DNA of 64,000 bases from positions 41,296-105,295 of the forward strand of contig DUMU01000035.1 in NCBI GenBank assembly GCA_012839805.1, given 5' to 3'. This document shows positions 4,084 through 44,917 of the stretch, in pieces (position 1 is the stretch's first letter; each line of letters opens with the position of its first letter). Under the pieces are notes generated by a model. The model made no database searches and was not told the DNA's origin. It saw only the letters and a program-made list of their open reading frames with translations. Both the position numbers and the translations under genes were made by a program. The stretch is from Bacillota bacterium. GTDB lineage: Bacteria > Bacillota > Limnochordia > Limnochordales > DUMU01.

Positions 4084-4280
4084 GGAAAGCGAGTTCCCTG
4101 CTGTGTCCGTGATCAAGCCGGCAGATGGTATGCGCCAACACCATCTAAAAGGGATCCGGACTCTGGACACCGAGGGCAGGCCCCCCCTGCTCGGGGAAGC
4201 CCGCATGGCGTCCAGGAGGAACCCACCTGCCGGGGGCAGGTGCAAACCGGCCGGCACCTAACGGCACGGCGGGGAAATCG
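4084..4280 (+). ncRNA. ssrS: 6S RNA (SsrS), global regulator of RNA polymerase
   Basis: 6S RNA mimics an open promoter and binds the housekeeping sigma-RNA polymerase holoenzyme in stationary phase. The region between aspS and the Rrf2 regulator has no plausible ORF and folds as expected. A closing helix pairs 4094-4110 (TTCCCTGCTGTGTCCGT) with 4261-4276 (ACGGCACGGCGGGGAA), with two G-U pairs and one bulged U. Inner hairpins lie at about 4170-4194 (CCGAG..CAGG / CCTG.CTCGG) and 4225-4241 (ACCTGCC/GGCAGGT). The stem-to-stem size of 183 nt is typical. A sigma-A promoter lies upstream and an intrinsic terminator follows at 4290-4318. Placement directly after aspS matches my recollection of B. 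subtilis 6S-1 RNA (bsrA). The identification rests on structure, size and synteny; a covariance-model search would settle it. Confidence 0.85.
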
Positions 4281-30349: not shown

Positions 30350-30769
30350 ATGACCCGTCACGAGGCGCGCCGGCTCGCTTTGCAGGTTCTCTACCAGGTG
30401 GACCTGGTGGCGACCCGCCCGGACGTTGCCCTGGAACGGGCAGCCCGTATGATGGGCTGTGAAGGTGAAGAGGGGCTCGATTATGCCGGCGAGGTGGTGC
30501 GGGGCGTCACCGAGCACCAGGCCGAGCTCGACCGGTGGATTCAGAAGTACGCGGTGGACTGGACGGTCGACCGCATGGCGGTAGTAGACCGTAATCTCCT
30601 GCGCATTGCCCTCTATGAGCTTTTGTTCCGGCCCGACATACCCCCGGCCGCGGCGGCTTCGGAGGCCGTGGAGCTCGCCAAGGAGTTTGGCGATACCGAC
30701 TCCCGCCGCTTCGTTAACGGCATCATCGGCAGCTTCCTGCGGGAACAGGCCGACCTGCTGAACCGTTGA
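30350..30769 (+). CDS. nusB: Transcription antitermination protein NusB
   Basis: An all-helical RNA-binding factor that, with NusE (S10), promotes antitermination in rRNA operons. ATG 30350 gives the usual start MTRHEARRLALQVLYQVDL and follows aaggaagaaggg; GTG 30326, overlapping the previous gene, is an alternative. Conserved C-terminal pieces are VVDRNLLRIALYELLFRPDI and RRFVNGIIGSFLRE, with ASEAVELAKEFGDTDS between them. The length of 139 residues is normal. It begins the nusB-Kae1-like-xseA-xseB-ispA stretch. Confidence 0.95.
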   Translation: MTRHEARRLALQVLYQVDLVATRPDVALERAARMMGCEGEEGLDYAGEVVRGVTEHQAELDRWIQKYAVDWTVDRMAVVDRNLLRIALYELLFRPDIPPAAAASEAVELAKEFGDTDSRRFVNGIIGSFLREQADLLNR

Positions 30770-30783
30770 AGCTCTTTCGTTCC

Positions 30784-31872
30784 ATGGCTCCTGCTTTCGT
30801 TCTCGGTCTTGATACCAGCGCCTACACGACCTCCATCGCCCTGCTGGACGAGGAGGGAAGGCTGGTCCACGAAGCCCGCCGGCGGCTTCCGGTCGCACCG
30901 GGAGAGCGCGGGCTGCGCCAGTCGGAGGCGCTTTTCCGCCACCTCCTCGTCCTGCCGGAGGTGCTGGAGGAAGCCTCGGCCCGCCTCACGGGTGGACGGG
31001 CCGGGGAGGAGGCTTTGCCCCTGCTGGCGGTGGCGGCCAGCACCGCGCCGCGGCCGCGGCCCGAATCCTATCTCCCCGTCTTCCGAGCCGGAGAGCGAAT
31101 GGGACGGGCGCTCGCCGCCGTGGCGGGCGCGCCGTTTTTCCCTTTGAGTCATCAGGAGGGCCACCTGCTGGCGGTCTGGTACGAAAAACAGCAGGAAGCA
31201 ACCGGGCGACAGGGGTTGGCGGTGGGAGCCGGTGAAGTTGCCGGTGAGAAAGATGGAGACTTTCTCCTTTTGCATGTATCCGGCGGAACCACCGAATTGC
31301 TGCACGTGCAGCCCGACCGGAGGGGGCAGACGGTCTCGGGCTTCACCCTCGAGGAGCTGGGAGGATCGGTGGACCTGAAGGCGGGGCAGTTCGTCGATCG
31401 GGTGGCCGTTGCCCTGGGCCTCCCCTTTCCGGGCGGCCCGGCCCTGGAACGGTTGGCAGCGGCCGCCCCTTCGGTTAAGCTGGAAGGGCATCCACGCCTG
31501 CCGGTGGGTGGGCGGGGACTTCGGGTCAGCTTCTCCGGACCGGCCACCCAGGCCGAGCGGTGGGTAAAACGAGGAGTGCCGGCGGCGGTGGTGGCGCAGG
31601 CAGTTCAAGAGTGTCTGGTAGAAACGTTGCTGCAACTGGTGGCCGCCGGCTGGGAGATACTCCCCCAACGCCCCCTTTTCGTGGTGGGGGGTGTGGCGGC
31701 CAACGGGGTTTTGCGGCAGCGCCTGGTCGAAGAGGCCTCCCGGCGTGGGGCAACGGTGTATTTCGCCTCCCCGGAGCGGAGCACGGACAACGCGGTAGGC
31801 GTCGCCTACGGGGGCTGGCGGGCCTGGAAGGAAAGGGAGAAAGCAAGATGGGCGAGGCACTACGACGAGTGA
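30784..31872 (+). CDS. Kae1-like (TsaD-related) ASKHA ATPase domain protein
   Basis: A protein with the TsaD/Kae1 fold that is not canonical TsaD. It starts [21 protein letters not shown] and keeps phosphate-binding LHVSGGTTELLHV, EELGGSVDLKAGQFVDRVAVALGLPFPGGPALE in pieces, and VVGGVAANGVLRQRL. The iron-ligand region is altered: the usual HxxxH appears as PFFPLSHQEGHLLAV, which retains two histidines. In many Clostridia a paralog like this lies next to xseA, and its function is unknown; canonical TsaD makes tRNA t6A. Neither ATG 30784 nor the overlapping TTG 30766 has a clear ribosome binding site. It overlaps xseA by 25 nt. Confidence 0.8.
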   Translation: MAPAFVLGLDTSAYTTSIALLDEEGRLVHEARRRLPVAPGERGLRQSEALFRHLLVLPEVLEEASARLTGGRAGEEALPLLAVAASTAPRPRPESYLPVFRAGERMGRALAAVAGAPFFPLSHQEGHLLAVWYEKQQEATGRQGLAVGAGEVAGEKDGDFLLLHVSGGTTELLHVQPDRRGQTVSGFTLEELGGSVDLKAGQFVDRVAVALGLPFPGGPALERLAAAAPSVKLEGHPRLPVGGRGLRVSFSGPATQAERWVKRGVPAAVVAQAVQECLVETLLQLVAAGWEILPQRPLFVVGGVAANGVLRQRLVEEASRRGATVYFASPERSTDNAVGVAYGGWRAWKEREKARWARHYDE

Positions 31873-33517: not shown

Positions 33518-34418
33518 CCGGCCCTTACCCGACGGTGAAGAGCTGCGGCGGCTGGTGGACCGGGCGGTGGCGGCTTCTTTTCCCGAGCGGCCCTACCCGG
33601 AGCGGCTCTGGGAATCCATGCTCTACACGGCGGGGTCGGGGGGCAAGCGCCTGCGGGGGAGCCTCGTGCTGATGGCTTGCGCGGCCGCGGGGGGAGATTG
33701 GGAGAAGGCGTTGCCGGCGGCGGTGGCGGTGGAGTTGATCCACGCCTATTCGCTGATCCATGATGATTTGCCCATTATGGACGACGACGATTACCGGCGG
33801 GGACGGCCCACCAATCACCGGGTCTACGGACCGGCGATCGCCCTATTAGCTGGGGACGCCCTGCAGGCCCGGGCCTTTGCTGTGCTGACCGCCGTGGAAA
33901 ACGGTGCTCCGCCGCAGGTCCAGCTGGCCTGGGTGCGGGAGCTGGCGGAGGCGGCGGGGGCGGCCGGACTGGTCGGGGGCCAGGTGGTGGACTGGGAGTC
34001 GGAGGCCGGGCGATGGGAGCAGGAGGAGCGCGGGAAAGTGGCGGGGAGACTGGAGTTCATCCACCGGCACAAGACCGGGAGCCTCTTGCGGGCGGCAGCG
34101 CGTCTTGGGGGAGTGGCGGCGGAAGCTGGCGAAGAGACGCTGACCCGGCTCGGGGTTTACGGTTCAGAGCTGGGACTGGCCTTCCAGATCACGGACGATC
34201 TCCTGGACGAAGTGGGCGACCCGGCGGGGACCGGGAAGGCGGTGGGCCGGGACCGGCGGCGGGGAAAACTTACCTACGTGACGCTCTTTGGCGTGGAGGA
34301 GAGCCGGGAGGCGGCCCGGCGGGCGATTGAGAGGGCCAAGGCCGCCATCGAGCCCCTGGGGGAGGGGGCGAGGAGGCTCCTGGAATTGGCGGACCAGCTG
34401 GTGGGGCGGAGCCGCTAG
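33510..34418 (+). CDS. ispA: Polyprenyl (farnesyl) diphosphate synthase
   Basis: A class I trans-prenyltransferase that condenses IPP with DMAPP/GPP. The first aspartate-rich motif is HDDLPIMDDDDYRRGRPTNH, the second is FQITDDLLDEVGD, and KTGSLLRAAARLGG and GGKRLRGSLVLM are also typical. ATG 33510 overlaps xseB. The 302-residue length and sequence favour a farnesyl diphosphate synthase rather than a longer-chain enzyme, but chain length is not proven. Terminator hairpins follow, then the OLE RNA and, beyond it, dxs of the same isoprenoid pathway. Confidence 0.94.
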   Translation: MSSRPLPDGEELRRLVDRAVAASFPERPYPERLWESMLYTAGSGGKRLRGSLVLMACAAAGGDWEKALPAAVAVELIHAYSLIHDDLPIMDDDDYRRGRPTNHRVYGPAIALLAGDALQARAFAVLTAVENGAPPQVQLAWVRELAEAAGAAGLVGGQVVDWESEAGRWEQEERGKVAGRLEFIHRHKTGSLLRAAARLGGVAAEAGEETLTRLGVYGSELGLAFQITDDLLDEVGDPAGTGKAVGRDRRRGKLTYVTLFGVEESREAARRAIERAKAAIEPLGEGARRLLELADQLVGRSR

Positions 34419-34527
34419 GCCCGGGCAGGGCCGGGGACCTCGGGTCACCCGGGGTGGCCCGTTGCCTGATGTCGACCCGGACGGGACCCGGTCCAGACTT
34501 ACCGGCAAAGGAGACTGCGAGTACGCT

Positions 34528-34558
34528 AGCTGGGCTTTAGCGGTCCCAGCTCCTTTTT
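34528..34558 (+). terminator. Intrinsic terminator of the nusB-ispA unit
   Basis: AGCTGGG (34528-34534) pairs with CCCAGCT (34545-34551), followed by CC and five T residues. It is about 110 nt beyond the ispA stop and isolates the OLE transcription unit from upstream transcription. Confidence 0.75.
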
Positions 34559-34565
34559 CCATGGT

Positions 34566-34589
34566 GCTAATGCCTACCATTAGCCTTTT
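34566..34589 (+). terminator. Second, weaker terminator-like hairpin
   Basis: GCTAATG (34566-34572) pairs with CATTAGC (34578-34584) around cctac, followed by CTTTT. It lies directly behind the previous terminator, so the two may act in tandem. Confidence 0.45.
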
Positions 34590-34854
34590 GCCCTCCGTTC
34601 CGGCATTTGCTCGCCGCCGGGATGGCGCATTCTGCGCCAACAGGTGCCTCCAAAGCTGGTGCAAAATGCGCCAATCCGGCCCCTGGCCCCTCGAGGTGTC
34701 AGGGCTGCGTCGACCAGCGCCGGAAGAAGCCATCCCTTCGCAGGTACGTGGAGCCGGCGCGAGGTTGGGTCGGGCGAACAGGCGGCCTTTGCCCGAGCCC
34801 TCTCCTTAGCTACGTGGAGTCCGCAGCGGGGGTGAGCGAAACGGTGAGCCGGCT
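34590..34854. other. Non-coding region upstream of OLE with a long inverted repeat
   Basis: About 265 nt without a believable ORF. Its main feature is an inverted repeat: 34623-34639 (TGGCGCATTCTGCGCCA) pairs with 34657-34673 (TGGTGCAAAATGCGCCA) with one mismatch and one G-U pair, loop 17 nt. The left arm can also fold on itself (TGGCGCA/TGCGCCA). Further on, the 9-mer TACGTGGAG occurs twice (near 34744 and 34810), each followed by a GC-rich tail. No T-run follows, so this is not an ordinary terminator. Function unknown. Confidence 0.6.
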
Positions 34855-34883
34855 TTGACAGGCGACGGCCGCCCGGCTATAAT
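34855..34883 (+). promoter_or_regulatory. Perfect consensus sigma-A promoter of the OLE RNA
   Basis: TTGACA (34855-34860), 17 bp, TATAAT (34878-34883). Transcription would begin near 34890. This is one of two exact consensus promoters in the window and predicts strong expression of the RNA. Confidence 0.88.
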
Positions 34884-34889
34884 CAAATT

Positions 34890-35515
34890 GTCGGAAAATT
34901 CGGCTGACGCAGTATCCTAGTGCGGTGAGGTTCCGGCGAAGGCGGCCCTAAAAAGCCGTCGCTGGCTAACCGATGAAGTCCCTGGCGGTGGCTGGAGACG
35001 CCCAGTCTCGGGCTGCGGCTGGGGGTTAAGGAGAGGGGGCGATCCGCAACGGCATGCGGGCGTAGACCCTCTCTCCGCGGAGGCCCATCAATCATGGCCC
35101 CTCCCTCCGGATGGGCCATCCCGATGGGGTTGAATTTGCCCCGGTTCGCTGCGGTGACCGGGAGCAGCGTAGCCTGCCTTGCGTGGTCCGGCGGGAAAAG
35201 AGGATCCGGCGCCCGGTCTGGCGGCCGCAGCCGGGTGATCGCAGCTCTTCAAAGCCGGGCTGCTAAAGAGGCTAGCCGGAAACGAACCGATTGAGGAAAA
35301 CTCCTAGGCTGTCTCTCCCGGGGGCAGGCCGGGATTGCGGTGTGGACTGAGTGGTAATCCAGCCGCGCCGGTGGCAACACGGCGCAGCAGCCGGAAAGGG
35401 GAAACCGCCTGGCCGGCGACGGTGAGGAGGGCTGCTGGGAAAACCTGCTGGACCTAAGCCACAATGTTTACCGGTCCTGCTGTCAGCCGGTTCAGCTAGT
35501 AGTCAACCGGTATTC
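34890..35515 (+). ncRNA. ole: OLE RNA (Ornate, Large, Extremophilic)
   Basis: A large structured non-coding RNA of about 600-630 nt that forms an abundant membrane-associated ribonucleoprotein. In Bacillus halodurans it is linked to tolerance of cold, short-chain alcohols and Mg2+ stress. The span between ispA and the next gene has no coding gene but many hairpins: GAGAGGG / CCCTCTC (about 35032-35074), ATGGCCC/GGGCCAT (35094-35119), GCGCCG/CGGCGC (35365-35385) and CCGGTT/AACCGG (35487-35510). It follows a perfect promoter. Neighbours match the known OLE context (nusB, xseA, xseB, ispA, then oapA and dxs). The identification rests on synteny, size, structure and the downstream OapA-like gene. 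The 3' end is uncertain; a covariance search against the OLE family would confirm it. Confidence 0.92.
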
Positions 35516-35532
35516 TAAACCGGCACCGTCAC

Positions 35533-35556
35533 ACCCGCGGCGTGCTCGCCGCGGGT
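35533..35556 (+). other. Strong GC hairpin after the OLE RNA
   Basis: ACCCGCGGCG (35533-35542) and CGCCGCGGGT (35547-35556) form a perfect 10-bp stem with a 4-nt loop. No T-run follows. It may mark the RNA 3' end, protect it from exonucleases, or slow read-through into oapA, which lies 87 nt further on. Confidence 0.5.
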
Positions 35557-35643
35557 GGCGGCGCGCTCCGGACCGGCCGCGCCCCGCGCCGGCCCGCCAT
35601 CCGGGCAGGCTAACTTAAGGCAATCATAATCAGGAGGAGAACG

Positions 35644-36264
35644 GTGGGCAAACGGTTTGCGGTCATGGGCGCCGTGGCATTCGTCACCTCACTGGTCCTG
35701 AGTGGGATAACGCAAGGTGCCGCGGCGGGACTCTCTCCGGCCGTCGCCGGGTTGATCCTGGTCCTGGTGATCGCGAGCGGTATCGGCTTTGACGTGGTCG
35801 GGGTGGCAACGACCACGGCTTCCGAAAAGCCGTTCCATGCTCTGGCCAGCGACCGTGTAGCCGGCGCTACCCAGGCCGTCCGGCTGCTGCGACGACGCGA
35901 CCTGGTGGCGACGGTGACGAACGATGTAATCGGTGATATCCTGGGGACGATAGGGGGCGCAATGGGGGCTACGCTCGCCCTTCAGCTCAGCCTCTGGCTC
36001 GCCGAGCACCCGTGGCCGCTCCCCGGACCCCGGCCGGAACGGGTGCTTTTGTCCATTCTCGTGGTTGCTTGCACGGCTGCCTTGACCGTCGGGGGGAAGG
36101 CGGGGCTCAAACGGGTGGCAATCCACCGGAGCCACGAGATCGTCTTCGCGGTGGGACGGGCCATGGCCGTCCTGGAACGGTGGCTGGGTCGTCCCCTGCT
36201 CCTGGAAAGGGGCCGTAGCGCCCGCCGGAAGGGCCGGCGGGCGCTACGGCGGCTGCAACCGTGA
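35644..36264 (+). CDS. oapA: OLE-associated membrane protein OapA
   Basis: A 206-residue integral membrane protein with about four hydrophobic helices: residues ~6-24 (FAVMGAVAFVTSLVLSG), ~31-55, ~92-118 (VIGDILGTIGGAMGATLALQ) and ~132-155 (VLLSILVVACTAALTVG). The central segment GIGFDVVGVATTTASEKPFH, then NDVIGDI, resembles the DUF21-like region I recall for OapA. It ends in a strongly basic tail (RGRSARRKGRRALRR) suited to RNA contact. OapA binds OLE RNA and places it at the membrane. The GTG start has an excellent ribosome binding site (caggaggaga). It lies directly after the RNA and overlaps dxs by 4 nt, the expected arrangement. The call is strong from context; residue-level proof is lacking. 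Confidence 0.9.
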   Translation: MGKRFAVMGAVAFVTSLVLSGITQGAAAGLSPAVAGLILVLVIASGIGFDVVGVATTTASEKPFHALASDRVAGATQAVRLLRRRDLVATVTNDVIGDILGTIGGAMGATLALQLSLWLAEHPWPLPGPRPERVLLSILVVACTAALTVGGKAGLKRVAIHRSHEIVFAVGRAMAVLERWLGRPLLLERGRSARRKGRRALRRLQP

Positions 36265-38300
36265 CCGCGGGCCAACCCCGGCCCGAAGCAGGGAGGCAGT
36301 GGACAAAGGTGGGCATCCTCGACCGCATCGACTCTCCGTCGGATTTACGGCGACTTACGAACCGGGAACTGGGGGAGCTCGCCGGAGAACTGCGGGAAGA
36401 GATCATCCGTACCGTGGCCCTAAACGGCGGTCATCTCGCAGCTAACCTGGGAGTCGTCGAGTTGACCCTCGCGCTCCATTCCGTCCTGGAGACGCCCCAT
36501 GATCGGCTGGTCTGGGACGTAGGCCATCAGACCTACGCTCACAAGCTCCTGACCGGGCGGCGGGATCGCTTCCACACCTTGCGACGGGCGGGCGGTATCA
36601 GCGGGTTTCCCCGCCGGGACGAAAGCCCGTTCGATCCCTTCGGAACCGGCCATGCCAGCACGGCCATCTCGGCCGCCCTGGGTATGGCGGTGGCCCGGGA
36701 CCGTAGAGGTGAGAAGTACAAGGTAGTTGCAGTAGTAGGCGACGGAGCACTGACGGGCGGCATGGCCTACGAGGCGCTCAATCACGCCGGCCAGCTTGGC
36801 ACCCAGCTCCTTGTGGTTTTGAACGACAACGAGATGTCGATTTCCCCCAACGTGGGGGCGATCTCCCGATATTTGAACCGCTTACGTCTCGATCCCGGCT
36901 ACCGCCGGGCCAAGACGGACCTGAAAGAGCTGGCCCGTCGCTTACCCGGAGGGGTTCGTGCCTACGACCTGGCCGCGCGGGTAAAGGACTCGTTCAAGCA
37001 CGTCCTCCTGCCAGGCAGCCTCTTTGAGGAACTGGGCTTTGTCTATTTCGGACCGCTGGACGGCCACAACCTCGGGGAACTCCGGGACGCCCTCCGGGAA
37101 GTTCTGAAGCTCTGGCAACCCGTGCTCCTGCACGTAGTCACCCGCAAGGGCAAGGGCTACGAACCGGCGGAAAACGACCCCGCGCGCTATCACGGGACTC
37201 CTTCCTTTGACCGTTCTACCGGCCAGGTCAAGGTATCCGGCGACGCCGGTGCTCCCGATGCCAGAACTTACTCGGCCTTGTTTGCCGACACCCTGGTGGA
37301 ACTGGCGGCCCGCGACCCGCGGATCGTGGCCATCACCGCCGCCATGCCGGAAGGGACGGGTCTTGATCGCTTTGCCAGGGTATACCCCGACCGTTTCTTC
37401 GACGTAGGGATCGCAGAAGGCCATGCGGTCACCTTTGCCGCGGGTCTGGCCGCGAGCGGCCTGCGCCCGGTGGTGGCGATCTATTCGACCTTCCTGCAGC
37501 GGGCGTACGACCAGATAATCCACGACGTGTGCCTGCAAAAGCTCCCGGTGGTACTGGCCATAGACCGGGCCGGCCTGGTGGGCGAGGACGGGGCTACCCA
37601 CCAGGGCGCGTTCGACCTGGCGTACCTGCGCCCGATTCCTAATCTGACCATAGCGGCGCCCCGGGACGGTACCGAACTGGTGGCGCTGCTTCGCACCGCC
37701 CTGACCCTGGACGGCCCCATGGCCATCCGTTACCCCCGAGGCCTTGCCACCCTCCGCCACCGTGATCGTGAACCGGGAGACCAACCGGCAGGCGAACCGG
37801 CCGGCGAACCGGGAACCATCCCGGTCGGCCAGGGGGAGATACTCGCCGAGGGCCAGGATGTAGGCCTGGTAGCTCTGGGTTCGATGGTGGAGCCGGCCGA
37901 AAGGGCAGCCGCGCTCCTGGCCGAAGCAGGGATTACCGCCACCGTGGTGAATGCCCGTTTCCTGAAGCCCCTGGATGCTCGCCTTCTCCTGCAAGTAGGA
38001 GCTTGCGTACCTCTGGTGGTGACGGTGGAAGAAGGGGTCCTGGCGGGCGGTTTGGGAAGCGCGGTTTTGGAACTGTTTGCCAACCACGATTTGCGGGTGC
38101 CCGTTTTGCGGATCGGTATCCCCGACCGGTTCATCGAACACGCGACTCAAAGTGAACAACGGGAACAGCTAGGATTGACCGCCAGGTGGATCGCCCAAAC
38201 GGTGAAGGCCAAGCTGGAGAAGCTCTCCGGGCGAGCGGCCGCCGCGGGAGCCGTGTCTATCCCACCCGAGCCCGTCTCAACCCTGAACGGCAAGGGATGA
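36261..38300 (+). CDS. dxs: 1-deoxy-D-xylulose-5-phosphate synthase
   Basis: Thiamine-diphosphate enzyme that joins pyruvate and glyceraldehyde 3-phosphate, the entry step of the MEP isoprenoid pathway. The N-terminal signature is LDRIDSPSDLRRL. The ThDP-binding region is VVGDGALTGGMAYEALNHAG with NDNEMSISPNVG. The transketolase pyrimidine domain has IAEGHAVTFAAGLA and DRAGLVGEDGATHQGAFDLA, and a C-terminal domain follows. GTG 36261 overlaps oapA (GTGA); GTG 36309 just before GILDRIDSP would fit the family length better. At 679 residues it has extra tails. Together with ispA across the OLE RNA it makes isoprenoid precursors. Confidence 0.95.
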   Translation: MTAGQPRPEAGRQWTKVGILDRIDSPSDLRRLTNRELGELAGELREEIIRTVALNGGHLAANLGVVELTLALHSVLETPHDRLVWDVGHQTYAHKLLTGRRDRFHTLRRAGGISGFPRRDESPFDPFGTGHASTAISAALGMAVARDRRGEKYKVVAVVGDGALTGGMAYEALNHAGQLGTQLLVVLNDNEMSISPNVGAISRYLNRLRLDPGYRRAKTDLKELARRLPGGVRAYDLAARVKDSFKHVLLPGSLFEELGFVYFGPLDGHNLGELRDALREVLKLWQPVLLHVVTRKGKGYEPAENDPARYHGTPSFDRSTGQVKVSGDAGAPDARTYSALFADTLVELAARDPRIVAITAAMPEGTGLDRFARVYPDRFFDVGIAEGHAVTFAAGLAASGLRPVVAIYSTFLQRAYDQIIHDVCLQKLPVVLAIDRAGLVGEDGATHQGAFDLAYLRPIPNLTIAAPRDGTELVALLRTALTLDGPMAIRYPRGLATLRHRDREPGDQPAGEPAGEPGTIPVGQGEILAEGQDVGLVALGSMVEPAERAAALLAEAGITATVVNARFLKPLDARLLLQVGACVPLVVTVEEGVLAGGLGSAVLELFANHDLRVPVLRIGIPDRFIEHATQSEQREQLGLTARWIAQTVKAKLEKLSGRAAAAGAVSIPPEPVSTLNGKG

Positions 38301-40185: not shown

Positions 40186-40665
40186 ATGGTGAAGGAAAGG
40201 CGGCAGGCAGCCATCCTGCGTCTGGTGCGCCTGAACCGGATCGAAACCCAGGAGGAACTGGTCAGACGGTTGCAGGAGGAGGGAATCCCGGCCACGCAGG
40301 CCACGGTTTCCCGGGACATCAAGGATTTGCGCCTAAGTAAAGTTCAGGCAGGAGACGGGCACTCCTATTATGCTCTACCTGCCAGCAGCTCGCCCGGCGA
40401 TCTCTTGCAGCGGGCGCGCCGGGCTTTCCAGGACTACGTACTGCGGATCGACTGGACCGGCAACCTGATTCTCCTGCGTTGTTTGCCCGGAACGGCTTCC
40501 ACCGTTTCCCAGGCCCTGGACGATCTTCACTGGGACGAGATCATGGGCACCCTGGCCGGGGATGATACGGTTCTCGTTATCGTGCGCCGGCCGGAGGAAG
40601 ACCAGGAAGTACCGGGCTGGGAGCCCCTGCGCACGGTGGTACGGCGGCTGCGGGATCTGCGGTGA
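40186..40665 (+). CDS. argR: Arginine repressor ArgR/AhrC
   Basis: A hexameric arginine-responsive regulator of arginine synthesis and catabolism. It has an N-terminal winged helix (RQAAILRLVRLNRIETQEEL, ATQATVSRDIKDLRLSKV) and a C-terminal oligomerisation/arginine-binding domain (LPGTASTVSQALDDLHWDEI, GTLAGDDTVLVIVR with the Asp pair that contacts arginine). Length is 159 residues. Its targets (arg genes) are not in this window. The ATG is preceded by gagggagatc. Confidence 0.95.
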   Translation: MVKERRQAAILRLVRLNRIETQEELVRRLQEEGIPATQATVSRDIKDLRLSKVQAGDGHSYYALPASSSPGDLLQRARRAFQDYVLRIDWTGNLILLRCLPGTASTVSQALDDLHWDEIMGTLAGDDTVLVIVRRPEEDQEVPGWEPLRTVVRRLRDLR

Positions 40666-44111: not shown

Positions 44112-44917
44112 TGCTACCGGGCAAAACCCACCCGGTCGCCACCGTTCTGGTCGCGGACGCGGACGAGGCATTAACACAGGCGCTTAGAGACGAACTCGAC
44201 AGGGAACGGGATGGATTACGACTCATCGGGGTGGCGCGCAGCGGGCCGGAAGCCGTGAGAGTGTGTCAACGACGCCGGCCCGATCTTCTCCTTCTCGACC
44301 TCATCCTTCCCGGGCTCGATGGCCTGGCGGTGCTGCAGACCTTGAGGCGCCGCGCGCTCCTCGACCGGGTCAAAGTGGTGATCCATACCGCCTTGCGGGA
44401 CGAGGAAGTAGTCGCTCATTGCCTCAGCGAGTTCCGGGTTGCCTATTTCAGCGTCAAGCCGTTGCAGCTTCCGCTCCTGGTGTGCCGGCTCCGGGAGGTA
44501 GCGGCGGGCGTCTGGCCGGGTGGGCGCGATCTCGTCCGGGGGGCGCAACAAGTGGAGCAGGCCGCCACCCGGCATCTCGATTCCCTTGGAATACCGTCTC
44601 ATTACAAGGGCTACCGGTACCTGAGGGAAGCGATCCGCTTGACCGTGGTCTCGCCGGAGCTTCTCTCTCCTATCACGGGTAGACTTTACCGGTTGATTGC
44701 CCAGCGTTACGCTACCAGTCCCAACGGAGTGGAACGTTCCATTCGTCACGCTATCGAAACGGCCTGCACCAGAGGCAACCTGGAGGTGATCAATGCCCTC
44801 TTTTCTCACAGCATCGACCAGAACCGCGGCAAACCCTCCAACTCGCTTTTCATTGCCAGGCTGGCCGACAAGATCAGGCTCGAGGCCGGAAGGAAAGGGG
44901 GGTGGCGTTCCAGGTAG
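44111..44917 (+). CDS. spo0A: Sporulation transcription factor Spo0A
   Basis: Master response regulator of sporulation. The receiver domain (residues 1-~125) has acidic residues in VADADEAL, the phosphorylated Asp63 in LLLLDLILPGLDG, Thr in VVIHTALRD and Lys in YFSVKPLQ. The C-terminal DNA-binding domain has the Spo0A hallmark GIPSHYKGYRYLREAI, ATSPNGVERSIRHAIETA with the recognition helix, and KPSNSLFIARLADKIRLE. At 268 residues it is normal. ATG 44111 follows spoIVB directly, the conserved Firmicutes order. The Shine-Dalgarno spacing (12 nt) is long because an apparent 0A box lies in between. No clear sigma-H promoter was found. Confidence 0.96.
   Translation: MLPGKTHPVATVLVADADEALTQALRDELDRERDGLRLIGVARSGPEAVRVCQRRRPDLLLLDLILPGLDGLAVLQTLRRRALLDRVKVVIHTALRDEEVVAHCLSEFRVAYFSVKPLQLPLLVCRLREVAAGVWPGGRDLVRGAQQVEQAATRHLDSLGIPSHYKGYRYLREAIRLTVVSPELLSPITGRLYRLIAQRYATSPNGVERSIRHAIETACTRGNLEVINALFSHSIDQNRGKPSNSLFIARLADKIRLEAGRKGGWRSR

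Follow-up and report, generated by a model that had tools for sequence, protein, structure and literature searches.

OLE RNA ranks among the largest structured RNAs of bacteria and is one of a small number of large conserved RNAs with a chemistry still to be solved; its biochemical activity is unsolved as well. Its P12.2/P13 region is reported to bind the protein OapB. In Halalkalibacterium (H.) halodurans the RNA forms a ribonucleoprotein with OapA, OapB, OapC and bS21. There it is described as belonging to a polycistronic transcript (PMC12265935), and in Clostridium acetobutylicum an OLE dimer has been described by cryo-electron microscopy (PMC12286853). The RNA-RNA bridge loops of the dimer are set out in PMC12286853 and PMC12265935. 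As many as 2,822 OLE matches in Bacillota had already been published, and OLE was reported to anticorrelate with MpfA (PMC11332333), which with CorB and CorC represents the CNNM Mg2+ transporters. Here we analysed a stretch of 64,000 nucleotides (nt) of a Bacillota bacterium (contig DUMU01000035.1, assembly GCA_012839805.1, positions 41,296-105,295, forward strand), referred to as the window, in which an OLE RNA gene lies upstream of oapA. The window locus is a well-preserved new example of the known OLE system; its identity is secure, and for its mechanism we infer from the work on H. halodurans and clostridia.

An initial annotation of this DNA had placed an OLE RNA between ispA and dxs, as about 630 nt of hairpin-rich sequence without a coding gene, driven by an exact consensus promoter and followed directly by a membrane protein. 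When the window was scanned with cmscan against Rfam 15, the full OLE model (RF01071) was aligned with 391.2 bits, the curated cut-off being 50 bits, which makes the RNA a member of the OLE family. The match was the single one in the genome, and only OLE and 6S RNA exceeded the Rfam thresholds in the window, so that another large RNA was ruled out. Segments P7, P8 and P9 of 51, 34 and 107 nt (boundaries set in this analysis) confirmed the full-length type. The RNA folded more strongly than its dinucleotide shuffles (z -4.45, 0/20 shuffles as good), in line with the proposed richness in hairpins, and the exact promoter was found where it had been placed. No sense-strand frame of at least 70 residues was found within 34888-35502, where two antisense frames of 78 and 71 residues occur; a coding region at this site was therefore ruled out. 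The claimed length holds for the RNA, which measures 615 nt, but not for the whole gap between ispA (end 34418) and oapA (start 35644), which spans about 1225 nt (34419-35643). Likewise, oapA is indeed the next gene, but 141 nt separate it from the end of the RNA. The description of the DNA as GC-rich was borne out by a G+C content of 65.8% for the window and of 64.7% for the RNA itself, the latter ranking 7th of 111 OLE sequences with a median of 50%.

For comparison, OLE loci were collected in two ways: in named genomes they were located through OapA, the best 80 being taken from at least 545, and in others through the RNA model. OLE was searched for in 126 loci, 111 full-length sequences were kept, and 95 remained after thinning to less than 90% identity. 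The 15 excluded loci comprised 3 without a match and 12 with partial or split matches or matches cut by contig ends. Loci L125, L128 and L129 are pieces of one contig, as are L126 and L127, and in L020 about 250 nt are inserted between 2312 and 2560 and interrupt the OLE match. Of the reference positions conserved in at least 95% of sequences, the window RNA kept the near-invariant nucleotide at 186 of 191.

Promoter-like sequences were scanned from 50 nt upstream of OLE to 5 nt inside it in 93 of the 95 loci. A sigma-70-type site of at least 10/12 was present at 47/93 OLE loci and in 3/356 control windows taken 300-1200 nt further upstream; as genes probably cover many of these control windows, the contrast may in part reflect intergenic sequence. 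Perfect promoters were seen at 3/93 loci, the window included. Between 34400 and 36400, two promoter-like sites of at least 9/12 were found, compared with 0.2 in shuffles. The frequent possession of its own promoter could help explain the abundance of OLE. No earlier count of OLE promoters was found in a literature search on OLE RNA and promoters and in passages of two papers, a scope outside which two older OLE papers lie.

In the Rfam consensus of OLE the first 53 positions are unpaired. A search for paired columns in the alignment of 95 OLE RNAs recovered P1 and parts of P3/P3.1, both of which are outside the Rfam structure. P1 was paired in 96.4% of cells, compared with 26.8-65.6% when slid by 1-3 columns and a mean of 80.7% in shuffles, which ignore descent for both stems and of which 0/300 were as high. 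It also showed 17 further pair types (10-17 when slid) and double changes at 6/7 pairs (2-5 when slid), and it closes over the whole RNA of about 580 nt. For P3 the corresponding values were 89.2%, 36.6-55.2% when slid and a shuffle mean of 66.5%, again with 0/300 as high; here 13 pairs were counted, and three central positions, paired in 58/93, 61/90 and 29/40, were omitted. Further pair types numbered 47 (34-41 when slid). Double changes were found at 12/13 pairs, but the slid versions gave 8-13, one of them exceeding the true register, and these counts were rejected as evidence for P3. The P3 stem of the window RNA comprises 12 canonical pairs; it is interrupted by three G.A/A.G mismatches and has a further G.A at its end. 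At the level of the alignment, both P1 and P3 are supported, which constitutes an independent check of the stems in the published models.

The elements that serve as dimer contacts in the Clostridium acetobutylicum structure (PMC12286853), loops L4, L5, L6 and L9, are conserved in the window RNA, in which the pair closing L4 departs from the common form. Loop L4, described as the RNA-RNA bridge B1 (PMC12286853), reads CCUAAAAA in 82/95 OLE RNAs and GCUAAAAA in 11. The kink-turn and P4a-P5 region, which has been described as taking part in the binding of OapC and in contacts of the dimer (PMC9723947, PMC12265935), is also kept. L6 carries CAANGGCAUG in 93/95 sequences and GACCC opens the 3' strand of P6 in 92/95, while L9 contains a self-complementary tetramer in 89/95 (GGCC in 87/95). 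The hairpin at 35411-35422 was placed in the P12.2/P13 region, its helix number being an assignment of this analysis. The anti-Shine-Dalgarno mimic of H. halodurans P6 (CCUCCU) is absent from the window RNA, as it is from 92/95 OLE RNAs; in the aligned 12-nt P6 strand, CCUCC occurred in 3/95 and CCUCCU in 1/95.

The gene adjoining the RNA encodes a protein of 206 residues, which had been annotated as a helical membrane protein with a basic tail; several long helices were predicted and the tail is present. Its proposed similarity to OapA was likewise found, as protein P0009 of H. halodurans matched with 40% identity over 85% of the length (E 2.2e-27). The designation of P0009 as H. halodurans OapA rests on length, motif and this match, its database record calling it hypothetical. 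Altogether 32 OapA homologues were found, 23 of which were aligned with the window protein. Both aspartates of DVIGD were invariant in these 24 sequences, and DxxxD is named in PMC11332333 as an OapA motif that is missing from CNNM domains. The window protein has about 9 residues inserted in a loop, an insertion unmatched at such length in the other 23 aligned sequences. Its predicted fold is closest to the CNNM Mg2+ transporters and overlays the membrane domains of MtCorB and TpCorC. It differs from MpfA, CorB and CorC in that no match to a CBS or CorC_HlyC domain was found in it, in staying below the Pfam cut-off for CNNM and in being paired with an RNA. A search of the OapA profile against sequences of solved structures gave one chance match only (E 0.77). 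In prediction, OapA would be a fold relative of the CNNM/MpfA family and not a member of it. An invariant GGK of OapA sits about where the two MpfA-type proteins of the same genome carry GEILPK (by eye and in a weak alignment), so that the metal site of OapA may differ.

The initial annotation had suggested looking for homologues of oapB and oapC elsewhere in the genome, and genes resembling both were found there. An OapB-like protein is encoded between map and infA (L133:19225-19647) and matched the solved OapB structure (7k9b) with E 1.3e-4 over residues 25-76; the Pfam KOW model had given no match to OapB (the KOW protein YbzG), and the gene was located afterwards by gene order. An OapC/YbxF-like protein is encoded between rpoC and rpsL (L133:2463-2798) and matched YbxF (4lck) with E 4e-14; the neighbours of both genes were named by eye. 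A bS21 gene is present in the genome, and ArgR, reported as an OLE binder (PMC10898510), is encoded at 40186-40665 in the window. The locus thus shares with the H. halodurans system the full-length model match, the adjoining oapA, the isoprenoid/nusB/argR neighbourhood and all four partner genes sought, and it differs in the high G+C content of its RNA and in a C-G pair closing P4.

We consider it likely that the full-length OLE RNA, which follows its exact promoter and lies beside oapA, forms a dimer; this is predicted to be held at the membrane by OapA, in a complex that would act against metal, cold and nutrient stress. By analogy with the OLE RNAs of H. halodurans and clostridia, the transcript would be abundant, would dimerise at the membrane and would bind its partners in a stress function. 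In the likeliest model of such a complex, OapA would contribute a CNNM-type membrane domain for divalent metals that lacks the CBS and CorC parts normally present on the cytoplasmic side. Together with OapB, OapC and bS21, the RNA dimer would substitute for these missing regulatory parts and might report the state of the cell (Mg2+, translation) to the OapA membrane domain. Several observations weigh against this reading. OapA reached 18.6 bits with the Pfam CNNM model (PF01595), under the cut-off of 28.4, and comparison of its profile with the two MpfA-type proteins of the genome revealed no relationship (probability about 1%, with 2 sequences on that side). The same genome keeps these two proteins complete, with CNNM, CBS and CorC_HlyC domains. 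The window OLE is among the weaker matches, only 12 of 290 OLE genomes having a weaker best E-value, and several of those 12 have split or partial matches. The OapB-like match is weak, covering 52 residues and lacking an NCBIfam match, and the OapC-like protein matched L7Ae-type NCBIfam models only under their cut-offs. As a well-preserved, GC-rich OLE with its partner genes, the locus is a candidate for structural studies, also of the 3' region left unresolved in published maps.

When 398 genomes of the phylum were sampled, 290 proved to have OLE, and in the order 13/14 genomes had it; since it is so common, the window locus is a further example of a known system and not a new kind. OLE was accompanied in 101 of the 398 genomes by a CNNM match counted as strong (E of 1e-20 or lower; domain make-up was checked for the two proteins of the window genome only), while 189 had OLE only, 98 CNNM only and 10 neither. 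The two were thus statistically exclusive (odds ratio 0.055, Fisher p 4e-25, ignoring shared descent). Together with the CNNM-like predicted fold of OapA, this would agree with a complex that mainly exports divalent metals and, with an RNA as one of its parts, takes the place of MpfA-type proteins. Two or more CNNM matches were seen in 19/290 genomes with OLE and in 60/108 without it, and the window genome is among the 19. Its two genes for CNNM-CBS-CorC proteins of the MpfA type lie about 4.5 kb apart (L134 3626-11169, G000:C20). In all three genomes of the family OLE and OapA occur together with two strong CNNM matches, and at least one strong match was present in 10/14 genomes of the order. 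Two complete MpfA-type proteins beside OLE do not fit simply with the idea that OLE and OapA replace MpfA, and GGK in place of GEILPK is a further point against this account. We regard a mainly exporting complex as less likely than not. A genome with both OLE and two MpfA-type proteins could help to tell metal exporter from stress regulator models.

In PMC12265935 it is proposed that P3 of the OLE dimer crosses the bilayer, in which case the two RNA domains would be on opposite sides of the membrane. Some constancy of P3 agrees with this proposal: its 5' strand segment measured 14-15 nt in 90/95 sequences (standard deviation 0.68), whereas P7, P8 and P9 varied more (standard deviations 9.2, 9.4 and 7.6), and 10-17 base pairs were formed in 95/95. 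The mean was 14.0 pairs (standard deviation 1.3, n=95), with 11 for the window by RNAduplex; long stems occur in L123 (17), L124 (16) and L058 (17). However, P4, J3/4 and P4a-P5 were still more constant (standard deviations 0.00, 0.00 and 0.26), so that P3 is not set apart by its constant length, which was rejected as proof of membrane crossing. Stems of 16-17 pairs in 6/95 sequences, two of them from the order of the window (L123 and L124), and the internal mismatches of the window P3 also speak against the crossing, which we consider rather improbable.

The pair closing L4 (34946 x 34955) is G-U in 90/95 OLE RNAs, C-G in 2, G-A in 2 and A-G in 1. The C-G carriers are the window and its congener L086, and the family member L085 retains G-U. 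As both sides have changed together, pairing was kept while the near-invariant wobble was lost, and this natural swap at the dimer loop lets the need for G-U in dimerisation be probed. One might speculate, at rather long odds, that in the window lineage the OLE particle does not replace the MpfA-type exporters but is a regulator beside them, the swap of the genus retuning dimerisation for a GC-rich cell. Other departures from near-invariant positions were found at 34967, 35135, 35136 and 35264, for which no partner was identified; that at 35264 is common to L086.

Instead of being a separate RNA partner, OLE might also act in cis, as a leader controlling oapA and dxs on the same transcript. 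It lies just upstream of both genes in the window, no terminator-like site was found between it and oapA or elsewhere in 34400-36400, and oapA is downstream in 40/41 loci found by the RNA. The perfect hairpin between OLE and oapA is a possible RNA processing site. Against a leader, P1 closes over the whole RNA and direct protein partners of OLE have been published. Moreover, in one draft genome (L036, draft UBA5435; L138/L140) the ispA-oapA-dxs gap holds other sequence instead of OLE, and a full OLE of 405 bits is located on a 105-kb contig, preceded by frames of the phage head type. One of these frames extends into the OLE start. This OLE copy has its own promoter-like sequence and a terminator-like hairpin 3' of it (by eye). 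In the L031 genome OLE was found without OapA within 1.5 kb (L141 3958-4600, minus strand), apparently between NFACT-like and transporter-like genes (by eye). The separation of OLE from oapA in the L064 genome is accounted for by contig ends. OLE apart from oapA in two drafts, where misassembly is possible, points to action in trans, and such genomes inform the question of cis versus trans; we regard a cis-acting leader as very improbable. Together with the C-G pair at the P4 dimer loop and OLE beside two MpfA-type proteins, the two drafts make up the comparative value of this material. That the OLE copy of the window lineage is decaying and no longer functional is the least credible account, as the change of 5/191 near-invariant positions (0-3 in each of nine order relatives) and a model score low for the phylum are set against a change at 34946 that is matched at 34955 and common to the congener, and against intact contact loops, promoter and oapA.

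Features of the OLE-oapA locus, in window coordinates; proportions refer to the 95 aligned OLE RNAs
Feature	Position	Strand	Remarks
Sigma-70/A-type promoter, TTGACA-17-TATAAT	34855..34883	+	12/12 consensus, just 5' of OLE
OLE RNA gene, full-length type	34888..35502	+	RF01071, 391.2 bits, E 2.1e-111, model 1-616/616
P1, 5' strand	34902..34908	+	pairs with 35482-35488; 96.4% of cells paired, n=95
P3/P3.1, 5' strand	34922..34937	+	pairs with 35275-35290; 89.2% of cells paired, n=95
P4 hairpin, A-rich loop CCUAAAAA	34941..34960	+	published dimer bridge B1
Kink-turn element CGAUGAAGU and P4a/P5	34971..35026	+	CGAUGAAGU in 86/95
L5 loop GCCCA	35000..35004	+	kept in 90/95
P6, loop CAACGGCAUG	35030..35076	+	L6 dimer contact; published bS21 region
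P9 terminal loop with self-complementary GGCC (35223-35226)	35218..35230	+	published dimer kissing loop
P3/P3.1, 3' strand	35275..35290	+	partner of 34922-34937
3'-domain hairpin, loop GGCGAC	35411..35422	+	GG(C/U)(G/A)AC loop in 95/95
P1, 3' strand	35482..35488	+	partner of 34902-34908
Perfect 11-base-pair G+C-rich hairpin, no T run	35532..35557	+	between OLE and oapA, from fold
oapA, 206-residue membrane protein	35644..36264	+	DxxxD motif DVIGD, basic C-terminal tail

Partial OLE-like DNA was observed on the 504-kb plasmid pMM59_01 of Pusillibacter faecalis (L139), which is typed as conjugative. It covered 23% of the query with 68.6% identity and lies upstream of a CNNM-domain gene, dxs, a tlyA-type gene and a NAD kinase gene. 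One conserved 20-nt pattern of OLE gave no match among viral contigs, a single exact pattern being a weak test for phage-borne copies.

The genes around the locus, with short names assigned from Pfam matches, are accC, asp23, DUF2273, nusB, a TsaD-like gene, xseA, xseB, ispA, OLE and oapA, followed by dxs, a tlyA-like methyltransferase gene, nadK, argR and a recN-like gene. The order nusB, xseA, xseB, ispA, RNA, oapA and dxs given at the outset was found to hold, with the TsaD-like gene as an addition between nusB and xseA. This gene (30766-31872, plus strand) encodes a divergent TsaD/Kae1-like protein (PF00814, E 8.5e-23) that scored 115.6 bits with the NCBIfam TsaD model, the cut-off of which is 296.1, and it is perhaps a paralogue whose role is not assigned. 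The 6S RNA of the window was located at 4092-4279 on the plus strand (78 bits, E 1.1e-13; cmscan, Rfam 15). Matches to the Spo0A_C domain of the sporulation regulator family, of interest as the initial annotation had called the organism a spore former, were observed at about 44570-44875 (plus strand) in the window and in G000:C9, giving two such proteins in the genome.
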